A DNA stretch of 64,000 nt from contig NZ_LT699722.1 in NCBI RefSeq assembly GCF_900155395.1, positions 32,310-96,309 of the forward strand. Direction: 5' to 3'. The position numbers and the translations under genes are program-made. The DNA comes from Merdibacter massiliensis. Its GTDB lineage: Bacteria; Bacillota_I; Bacilli_A; Erysipelotrichales; Erysipelotrichaceae. The first letter of the stretch is position 1, and every line of letters begins with the position of its first letter. Under the pieces are notes generated by a model. The model made no database searches and had not been told where the DNA came from. It worked only from the letters and a program-made list of their open reading frames with translations. Below are positions 27,647-31,058 of the stretch, piece after piece.

Positions 27647-27669
27647 GAAAAAAAGGTGATTGCCCACCT
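27647..27669 (-). terminator. Terminator of the ABC exporter operon
   Basis: AGGTG (27654-27658) and CACCT (27665-27669) form a short stem followed by seven to eight T on the minus strand, directly after the exporter membrane-subunit stop. Confidence 0.75.
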
Positions 27670-27670
27670 C

Positions 27671-29233
27671 TTAGTGCCGCAAGCGAAAGGTCTTAGAAGC
27701 ATGCTTGCCGATCAAATAATAAGCAATCACCGCATAAAGAAAAGAGAATACGATCATTAAGATACCGAATAAGAATGCATCTACACGAAGATAGATAAAT
27801 GCAAAGCACAGTATATAAGTGATCCCCATAACCATGCCATAGGTAGCACTTTTCGTTTCTGTTGCTGCATTATACGGCTGTAACAAATAATAACAAGTTA
27901 AATAATGAATAGAGAATAATACACTGGATGCAAGCACGCTGATGATGACAACCAGAGAAGTCCATGCAAGGGTTGGATCACATACAAGCAATATTCCGGC
28001 ATATCCTGCCCCTAATATCAAGGCCGGCAATAAATTGATACGAATGACGGCAAACAAACGAAGCCGAAACAAAGACAGGATCGTTTCTTTTCTTCGATAA
28101 AACGAATACGTCAACATACTGTGATCACAATTGCGAAACATTGCCTGCACAACAGATTTTCCTGAATGGAACGAATAAACCAAAAAAATCAAATATGGCA
28201 AATACACCAATAATACATCTCTTCCTTCAGCTTTTGCTTGAGGAAAATACAATAACGCTAGAAACAATACCAGCCATACAAGCAAAGTAATCAATGAGAT
28301 CCGCTTTGCATAACGCCACAACAGCCGTTGATGCCGTTTAATAAAAAGCTCATTGAAATAAGCATACCCATGCTTGTTGCTTGTAATCAAATGATCATCG
28401 CTGATCTTGTTTTGATAATTTTCATTTGTGACCGTATTCAAACTTACATGTACTGCCGTATTCTTTTGTTGAAAAAGTTGTTGAGCCAAAGAACGATAAT
28501 GAGCAAACTTCCATAAATAAGGAAATACGAATAAGCCAAATACGAAACTGCATGATGCCGCTGTCATGATACAGAAAGCGGGAAGAAACAGTTTAGGTAT
28601 AATAGCACCATAAGCCAGAAAGAAACAGATCGCAATCGTGCCCCACACCCATTTGACAGGGGAATTCTCATTGCGTACAATGCCTTTCTGTTCATAGTGA
28701 TAGAGCGATACAGCTACACTGATCGTTTTTGCGCCGGCAACGCCAAAAGGCAATAAACCAAGCCAAACAGGTGCCTGCCATCGTATAATCAAGAACAACA
28801 AAAACGCCTGTGTTCCCACAAATACACGAGCTATTGAATATAGGTGTTGTGTGACAGAATAAGATCGGGCATTCATTCGCATCAAAATAATTGCATAATA
28901 AGTATCTTTTCTGGGATCAAAAACTCGACAATTACAAACTGCTCCGGCAATGGTCAAAAACAAATAGATATGCGCAAATGCATCATAGGAAAAAGCAAAA
29001 TATTGCATTGGAAGAAACACACAGATAAACAAGTACAAGCCATTATTCAAAAACATGGAGAGAAATTCCCAGATGATCGAACATATCAGAGCAAATCTCT
29101 TTAATCCTTTGGAAGCATATAAAGAGATTGGCAATAACCGTTTGATCAAAGGGAGTTGTTTCAATGAATATAGGATCGTATTAACACGATAAGCAATGCG
29201 TAAACGCATAGAGATCCAAAATGTATCAATCAT
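27671..29233 (-). CDS. ABC transporter membrane subunit, multi-TM, substrate unknown
   Basis: 520 residues from ATG 29233, after GGGAGGAG; a longer reading to 29284 would run into the ATPase gene. About ten or more hydrophobic segments are spread over the whole length, with a basic cytoplasmic loop near residues 260-320. I recognise no substrate signature. Size and pairing with a single-domain ATPase resemble ABC-2-type exporters of unknown cargo. It overlaps the ATPase gene by 8 bp. Expression may be phase-variable because of the G tract in the operon promoter. Confidence 0.75.
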   Translation of the reverse strand: MIDTFWISMRLRIAYRVNTILYSLKQLPLIKRLLPISLYASKGLKRFALICSIIWEFLSMFLNNGLYLFICVFLPMQYFAFSYDAFAHIYLFLTIAGAVCNCRVFDPRKDTYYAIILMRMNARSYSVTQHLYSIARVFVGTQAFLLFLIIRWQAPVWLGLLPFGVAGAKTISVAVSLYHYEQKGIVRNENSPVKWVWGTIAICFFLAYGAIIPKLFLPAFCIMTAASCSFVFGLFVFPYLWKFAHYRSLAQQLFQQKNTAVHVSLNTVTNENYQNKISDDHLITSNKHGYAYFNELFIKRHQRLLWRYAKRISLITLLVWLVLFLALLYFPQAKAEGRDVLLVYLPYLIFLVYSFHSGKSVVQAMFRNCDHSMLTYSFYRRKETILSLFRLRLFAVIRINLLPALILGAGYAGILLVCDPTLAWTSLVVIISVLASSVLFSIHYLTCYYLLQPYNAATETKSATYGMVMGITYILCFAFIYLRVDAFLFGILMIVFSFLYAVIAYYLIGKHASKTFRLRH

Positions 29234-29930
29234 GTGACTCCTCCCGTAATGCAGATAAAATAGAGTGACGGAAAGTTTCTTCATCCTCTATCTTCTCTAT
29301 TTGTGTCAATGTTCCTTGATTTAATACTACGATTTCATCACACAGATCTAATGCGAGTTCCATGATATGCGTAGACAAGATCAAGATACAGTCTTTTTTC
29401 AATTCCCGCAAGATGTCTTTCATTTCTTCTGCAACAACTACATCCAGCGATGTCAATGGTTCATCCAGCAGCAGCACTTTAGGATGAGCAATGATATTGA
29501 TCAACATCTGCATCTTGTTTTTCATTCCATGCGAATAATCTTTTAACAATCGATCTCGATCTTCCGTCTCGATATTGATAAAATCAAAATACGAATCGAT
29601 TGATTTTAGATCCGATATCTGATCTGCATGAATTTCAATAAAAAACTTTAAAAATTCCCTCGCTGTTAGAAACTCCGGTACTTGCGGGGTGGAGAGCACA
29701 TAGCCAATTTGTTCCATAGTTAACGGCATTACTTGTCCTTTCTCCTCTAAATAAAAAGAGCCTCCATCAATTATCAGATCCTGATTCAAACAGTTGAACA
29801 AAGTTGTCTTGCCTGCTCCGTTGCGTCCAAGCAATCCATAGATCTTTCCTTGTGAAAAAGTAAAATGGATATCTTTCAGCACTTTCTTTTCTTCAAAATT
29901 CTTTTGTAAATGTTCAATTCTTAATTGCAT
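29226..29930 (-). CDS. ABC transporter ATP-binding subunit
   Basis: 234 residues. Walker A GLLGRNGAGKTTLFN near residue 34; the signature region reads LLKDYSHGMKNKMQML, an ABC-2-type variant with YSHGMKNK instead of LSGGQ. Walker B is [13 protein letters not shown], with the switch His in ILILSTHIM. The HGMK variant is common in drug, bacteriocin and lipid ABC-2 exporters. It powers the membrane subunit encoded next. Start ATG 29930 follows GGCGGAGG. Confidence 0.9.
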   Translation of the reverse strand: MQLRIEHLQKNFEEKKVLKDIHFTFSQGKIYGLLGRNGAGKTTLFNCLNQDLIIDGGSFYLEEKGQVMPLTMEQIGYVLSTPQVPEFLTAREFLKFFIEIHADQISDLKSIDSYFDFINIETEDRDRLLKDYSHGMKNKMQMLINIIAHPKVLLLDEPLTSLDVVVAEEMKDILRELKKDCILILSTHIMELALDLCDEIVVLNQGTLTQIEKIEDEETFRHSILSALREESHD

Positions 29931-29977
29931 AACGACCTCCGCCCAATTGTCCTCATCATACCATGAAAGATGCTTCT

Positions 29978-30010
29978 ATCATACCCCCCCCCCCCACGAT
30001 TTTTTGTCAA
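29978..30010 (-). promoter_or_regulatory. ABC exporter promoter with a 12-bp G tract in the spacer
   Basis: On the minus strand TTGACA (30010-30005) and TATGAT (29983-29978) are separated by 21 bp, of which 12 are a run of G (29995-29984). Seventeen is the usual spacing, so loss of about four G would give a near-consensus promoter. A second TATGAT lies closer to the gene. Slipped-strand change of the tract would be expected to alter expression. Confidence 0.6.
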
Positions 30011-30039
30011 TAAAAAAGAAGTGTGGATTCTACACTTCT
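30011..30039 (-). terminator. Terminator of dusB
   Basis: Arms AGAAGTGT (30017-30024) and ACACTTCT (30032-30039), then six T on the minus strand. It overlaps the end of dusB and abuts the -35 of the exporter promoter. Confidence 0.85.
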
Positions 30040-31058
30040 CTTTCATGCGCCTGTATTTGCTTTTCATATTCTGTCAATATTTCATCGAATCGCGCATATG
30101 TAGAAACACGGGCCAAACGCTCTTTAACCGGATGGCTTCCCGGCAATCCTTTTATATACCACGCGGCATGTCCGCGCATCTCTTTCATTGCGACATTTTC
30201 ACCTTTTAAATCAATGAGGCGATGTGCATGTTCTCTTGCGATAGCAAAGCGCTCTTGATAGCTCACTTCTGGCAGCTGTTCTCCAGTCTTCAAGTAATGC
30301 ACGCATTGGCGAATCAGCCAGGGATCTCCTAATACGCCCCGTCCAATCGCAACAGCATCCACACCGGTCTCATCAAACATTCGCTGCATATCCTGCACGC
30401 TGCGCACATCTCCATTTCCGATCACCGGAACGGAAACAGCCTGTTTGACCTGCTGAATGATCTTCCAATCAGCCTTTCCCTCATACATCTGTGCACGAGT
30501 GCGGCCATGGATACAGATCGCACTGGCCCCTGCTTCTTCCATATATTGCGCAAACATCACTGCATTGATATGTTCACTGTCAAATCCTGAACGAAACTTT
30601 ACGGTCACTGGTTTTTTTACTGCTTGAACGATTTCCTTGACCAAAGAACGCGCATATTCCGGTTCTCGCATCAATGCACTTCCTGCATGCGCTTTGATCA
30701 CTTTATTAACAGGACACCCCATATTGATATCGATGATGTCGCATTGTGTTTGCGTATCCAACAGCTTTGCAGCATATACCATGCTTTCGATATCATGTCC
30801 AAATATCTGCAGACTCATAGGATGTTCCTCTTCCAGCACTTGGGTCATATTCAACGTTTTTCCATTATCATAATATAAAGCTTTGTCACTGACCATCTCT
30901 GCACAGACCAGCCCAGCACCAAACTGTTTACAGATACTGCGAAATGCAATATTAGAAACGCCCGCCATTGGCGCAATCACTAAACGATTAGGAATAGATA
31001 CATCCTTGATCTGCCAGCTACTGCTTGCTGAAAGTGTCGATGAATTTTTCGAGTTCAC
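30030..31058 (-). CDS. dusB: tRNA-dihydrouridine synthase
   Basis: 342 residues from GTG 31058, six bases after GAGGAGG and inside the end of hslO (41-bp overlap). An ATG at 31091 lacks this ribosome site. FMN-barrel motifs are LVIAPMAGVSNIAF near residue 27, DINMGCPVNK with catalytic C115, FRSGFD, and GNGDVRS. The family reduces uridines in the tRNA D-loop. Its place after hslO matches the Firmicute gene order. Confidence 0.9.
   Translation of the reverse strand: MNSKNSSTLSASSSWQIKDVSIPNRLVIAPMAGVSNIAFRSICKQFGAGLVCAEMVSDKALYYDNGKTLNMTQVLEEEHPMSLQIFGHDIESMVYAAKLLDTQTQCDIIDINMGCPVNKVIKAHAGSALMREPEYARSLVKEIVQAVKKPVTVKFRSGFDSEHINAVMFAQYMEEAGASAICIHGRTRAQMYEGKADWKIIQQVKQAVSVPVIGNGDVRSVQDMQRMFDETGVDAVAIGRGVLGDPWLIRQCVHYLKTGEQLPEVSYQERFAIAREHAHRLIDLKGENVAMKEMRGHAAWYIKGLPGSHPVKERLARVSTYARFDEILTEYEKQIQAHEREV

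Follow-up and report, generated by a model that had tools for sequence, protein, structure and literature searches.

Control of transcription through the length of a poly-G spacer is established for the porA promoter of Neisseria meningitidis, where the tract lies between the -35 and -10 elements, expression is graded, and the product is exposed at the cell surface (PMC3639595). The tp0126 gene of Treponema pallidum, a spirochaete, encodes an OmpW homologue and likewise has poly-G between the two elements, with transcription being best at a total spacing of 17 nt (PMC7864442). In the same broad lineage as the bacterium considered here, simple repeats in the promoter or spacer control the surface proteins encoded by vlp of Mycoplasma hyorhinis and vmm of M. 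mycoides, although these repeats are a poly-A tract or a dinucleotide repeat instead of poly-G, and both species are pathogens (PMC10502178). The opc promoter of N. meningitidis is also under homopolymer control, but via poly-C over the -35 region (PMC7864442), and poly-C versions are nearly absent from the promoter class described below (a poly-C control in 34 genomes of the order returned 4 rows from 3 places).

The locus described here lies in a 64,000-nucleotide stretch of the Merdibacter massiliensis genome (hereafter the window) and resembles porA in its anatomy, having between recognisable hexamers a homopolymer that varies in length from one close relative to another around unchanged hexamers; the coexistence of several lengths in one population and length-dependent expression, which also define the porA type, are only inferred here. 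Whereas porA belongs to a Gram-negative pathogen, the tract here precedes an operon for an ABC transporter in an Erysipelotrichales bacterium of the gut, follows a class-wide layout, and shows a class spacer peak of 18–19 bp. A search of the open-access literature for poly-G spacer promoters returned none described from Erysipelotrichales or from related Bacilli of the gut; most subscription papers were outside its scope, and novelty is unproven. The promoter class in these gut Bacilli is apparently undescribed, while the principle of a repeat in the spacer is already known from porA and tp0126. An initial impression of few cases in gut Firmicutes agrees with this literature, yet it underestimates the architecture, which recurs often among Erysipelotrichales and related Bacilli and precedes cargo of the kind that is typically phase-variable.

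We consider it likely that the site is a sigma-A promoter with a strength set by a slipping G-tract, and that it is one member of a multi-locus class; promoter activity, length dependence, slippage within a population, and transporter function are all inferred. In this model, the promoter would drive the two-gene transporter operon, and slipped-strand mispairing would add or drop Gs in its spacer, shifting both the distance and the rotational phase between the -35 and -10 elements and altering transcription initiation. The outcome would be high or low expression that is heritable and reversible, and a conserved extended -10 element ~23 bp downstream may supply basal expression.

Anatomy of the putative G12 promoter and its operon

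Read along the minus strand, the site comprises a perfect -35 hexamer (TTGACA, 30010-30005), a fixed 9-nt spacer part (AAAAATCGT, 30004-29996), the G12 homopolymer proposed as the variable element (29995-29984), and a near-perfect -10 hexamer (TATGAT, 29983-29978), with the tract sitting exactly between the two hexamers in a spacer of 21 bp. This sequence is shown. The G12 tract is the sole run of G or C of at least 6 in the window. Genome-wide (G000, 2.47 Mb), no other such run is as long, and just two reach at least 9; by a first-order Markov estimate, 0.0004 runs of at least 12 would be expected in 64 kb and 0.014 in the whole genome. The other run, a G10 preceded by T10 (C12:140719-140728, L001), is intergenic and lacks promoter elements, and near it lie what we take to be, from our own reading of the ORFs, AbiE-like genes.

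The upstream gene, dusB, ends in a Rho-independent terminator on the minus strand (30011-30045; 14-bp stem, T-rich tail), which folds at -14.4 kcal/mol (z -4.1), stops just short of the -35 hexamer, and insulates the promoter. On the other side, the ATPase start codon (ATG, 29930) comes 53 bp after the end of the tract and is served by a GGAGG Shine-Dalgarno sequence (29936-29940, minus strand). A second TATGAT (29960-29955) has TGG just before it, forming a candidate extended -10 on the same strand (TGGTATGAT, 29955-29963).

The operon, also on the minus strand, begins with an ABC transporter ATPase of 234 a.a. (29226-29930; Pfam ABC_tran, 1.2e-21), adjoined and overlapped by the ORF of a polytopic membrane subunit of up to 537 a.a. 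(27671-29284). No substrate-binding protein is present, and a terminator-like hairpin past the membrane subunit gene (27651-27672) suggests a two-gene operon. The membrane subunit matched no Pfam or NCBIfam family, exporter families included, and a PDB sequence search with it returned no convincing relative. Its AlphaFold model was set aside as unusable (pLDDT 53.6).

The sequence-only reading had described a TTGACA and a TATGAT around a 21-bp spacer containing 12 Gs on the minus strand, which held exactly. Its proposal of a phase-variable promoter for an ABC operon is supported in that promoter, spacer tract, and operon are present; the switching itself was not observed. The label of exporter held only in part, given that the ATPase is assigned to a family and its 537-a.a. 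partner is not; it remains an inference made from sequence alone, and neither the cargo nor the direction of the transporter is established. The second TATGAT, suggested as a source of basal expression, is present as part of an extended -10 whose TGnTAnGAT motif is kept in the sister species described next, with the basal role only a candidate.

Conservation among relatives of the operon

In a sister species (G002, contig CASFOT010000056.1), the promoter keeps all 23 non-tract bases of the core, including both hexamers and the fixed 9-nt part, and ATTGACAAAAAATCGT and TATGATA are the same in both genomes. The tract there is G10 and the spacer 19 bp. By comparison, the two ATPase genes share 74% identity in their coding DNA (79% in the protein), the flanks of the core have diverged, and G002 has one additional gene upstream. 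A hairpin-like stretch with a terminal T-run occupies the place equivalent to the dusB terminator, with a different sequence. Both the conservation and the between-species difference in length are shown, and a core that is kept around a tract of 12 versus 10 is what slippage under promoter selection predicts.

The downstream element offers a rival reading, in which the tract does slip while the extended -10 mainly sets expression, leaving slippage with little effect. In its favor, a TGnTAnGAT motif is kept at an equal 17-nt distance in both species (TGTTAGGAT in G002). Against it, the upstream -35 and -10 hexamers are conserved even better than this motif, and we regard the rival as very improbable compared with the tract-dependent promoter.

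Of 273 genomes in the family, 44 encode relatives of the membrane subunit, and an ATPase homologue adjoins the subunit in those loci examined. Among these relatives, only G002 shares the full promoter; upstream of the more distant ones (L038, L042, L045, and others), the sequence is ordinary and has no tract, so the switch may have been gained by the operon in this genus or lost outside it. The membrane subunit was not matched in G001, the third genome of the genus (86% complete). The arrangement TTGAAA-TGGGGGTG-TATGTT in the Faecalicoccus pleomorphus orthologue contains a five-G stretch that is perhaps a remnant; its spacing is unfit, and we did not count it as evidence. A scan of IMG/VR for variants of the same locus found no exact match to the core, and its 19 mixed phage hits gave no useful variants. 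Separately, two IMG/VR contigs (L247 and L254) share TTGACA-AACA-G12-TAAAAT, with equal tract length in two samples.

A recurring promoter layout and its cargo

The layout of the class is TTGACA-(8-9 nt)-G8 to G16-TAnnnT. Across the order, the pattern TTGA..G8..TAnnnT matched 34 of 316 Erysipelotrichales genomes (17 of 80 genera), against 8 matches for the reversed pattern, and a stricter pattern in a wider Bacilli-type group matched 34 of 392 high-quality genomes (25 of 155 genera; reversed, 1 match). Another family yielded ~173 matches in 28 of 145 genomes and none with the reversed pattern, the top counts per genome being 47, 20, 15, 13, and 11. When the 34 genomes of the order, preselected for having at least one such site, were considered, 51 of 91 fetched tracts of G8 or longer lay between -35-like and -10-like hexamers. 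The 104 distinct sites are markedly uniform, with an exact TTGACA in 94, a tract abutting the -10 in 91, and a 9-nt prefix, the commonest length and that of the present site, in 53. The recurrence of the architecture is shown, within a sample in which many genomes are fragmented assemblies, each species is represented by one genome, genes were called by simple ORF rules, and taxa beyond the group were left out. The gut habitat of the class genomes is inferred from their Erysipelotrichaceae relatives.

Two-colour sequencing chemistry is known to produce spurious poly-G, and chance or an artefact of sequencing or assembly, such as poly-G base calls, could in principle account for such tracts. 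This explanation is virtually ruled out because the promoter is conserved across species, in an independent assembly and with unique flanks on both sides, and hundreds of sites stand against almost none for the reversed patterns. The class also occurs in G273, a 2.93 Mb assembly consisting of one contig, which excludes a poly-G artefact of read ends.

Proteins encoded downstream of class sites carried an N-terminal signal or transmembrane segment in 63 of 99 cases, compared to 10 of 56 ORFs in the window (p = 4e-8), as called by a simple hydrophobicity rule against a control set that is small and from one genome. This bias is shown, and the cargo is mostly secreted or surface proteins, capsule genes, lipoproteins, and transporters. 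Families downstream include List_Bact_rpt, BspA leucine-rich repeats, Big_2, Polysacc_synt_2, SPFH, and bacterial PH, along with SIS, radical SAM/SPASM, NusG-like, and ABC ATPases, and five genomes (G774, G667, G740, G762, and G597) have many of their sites in front of genes from paralogous families of secreted proteins. The strong surface bias holds for the class; at the G12 site itself, the cargo is an ABC ATPase and an unclassified membrane subunit. The layout offers a sequence rule by which putatively switchable surface genes of these lineages can be sought, and metagenome reads already available would allow an immediate test of the dozens of putative slippage promoters in gut-type Bacilli genomes.

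Several further observations were made in these genomes. Five genomes of one family (G774, G762, G680, G740, and G667; loci L347-L386) each contain between 8 and 47 promoters with a poly-G spacer, located ahead of genes for paralogous secreted proteins, and many of these sites lie <100 bp from contig ends, which suggests repeats that break assembly. In G192, a G9 poly-G promoter (L076) precedes zinc-ribbon/TM2-like and SPFH-type genes. Clustered G9 tracts without the promoter layout, about 500 to 3,600 bp apart and in one orientation, were seen at L142 (G277 C3) and L151 (G284 C24). Six other genomes (G625, G571, G498, G550, G469, and G554) hold 23 to 75 tracts of G8 or longer and did not match the promoter pattern; phase variation within coding sequences is one possibility for these.

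Tract length and spacer length

The sequence-only reading had proposed counting tract lengths across related genomes, and this comparison was made between species. Besides the G12 and G10 of G000 and G002, tract lengths differ in the ortholog pairs G107/G137 (11 and 10, with proteins 98% identical), G489/G485 (10 and 9), G191/G194 (8 and 11), and G192/G194 (12 and 10), making 5 of 9 pairs. The remaining four (G108/G114, G449/G457, and two in G629/G653), which were matched by promoter sequence and not by protein comparison, are of equal length, indicating that not every tract is hypervariable. Near-identical promoters inside one genome also range from G9 to G14 in G667 and from G8 to G13 in G740. 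Given these differences between species and between paralogs, the tracts do change length over evolutionary time; switching within a population is inferred only.

Over the 104 sites, the spacer has a mean of 18.2 bp (sd 1.6) and a peak at 18–19 bp, which is shown, and the 49 further sites of a second family peak at 19–20 bp. Ordinary TTGACA/TATAAT pairs at the same loci peak at 16–17 bp (n = 11 only). The lengths of prefix and tract compensate for one another, giving narrower spacers than shuffled combinations (permutation, p = 0.0002; 0.018 with outliers trimmed). The earlier assumption of an optimum near 17 bp was adjusted to this empirical class peak. A compact G-tract helix is one possible, and purely inferential, explanation for the longer optimum. 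Spacers of at least 21 bp occur at 5 of 104 sites, placing the present promoter at the long end, and its allele may be nothing more than a weak one. Because the class peak is 18–19 bp, we predict that the G12 allele here (21 bp) is weak or off, and that a G10 state (19 bp, as in G002), or G9-G10 more broadly (18–19 bp), would be on, the dependence of transcription on length being inferred.

Long spacers of this kind raise a second rival, a MerR-type regulator that activates an overlong promoter by untwisting spacers of 19–20 bp. Spacers of 19–21 bp between near-consensus hexamers fit this idea, as such an arrangement is found in MerR-family promoters. Against it, the spacer lacks dyad symmetry, a homopolymer is not a MerR operator, and the operon has no MerR-like gene, leaving this explanation with very little to recommend it. 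A third rival holds that the G-tract is a fixed binding site or structural element (an A-like helix, quadruplex-prone) of a regulated promoter, with length changes being neutral noise. The wholly conserved core, including the 9-nt part, and the four ortholog pairs that keep their length speak for it. Set against these, prefix sequence varies freely in the class while total length is held near 18–19 bp, the cargo is varied yet surface-biased, and tract lengths diverge in five ortholog pairs and among many paralogs; we consider a fixed element unlikely, and a strength-setting, slipping tract remains our preferred reading.

A bolder form of the slippage reading, towards which we lean by a narrow margin, credits commensal Bacilli of the gut (Erysipelotrichales and related families with small genomes) with a promoter phasome that is modular and extends across the lineage. 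Here, single genes for surface proteins would each be preceded by a standard cassette (TTGACA, 8–9 nt, G-tract, -10), with as many as 47 copies in a 1.4 Mb genome; every copy would slip and switch independently, and the 18–19 bp optimum would arise from the compact G-tract helix.

At this site and likewise across the class, the tract directly abuts a T of the -10 hexamer (29983-29984). In Gammaproteobacteria, GnT motifs are hotspots of T-to-G mutation (PMC12344412), and on that basis one-way loss of the -10 with extension of the tract could possibly occur besides slippage.
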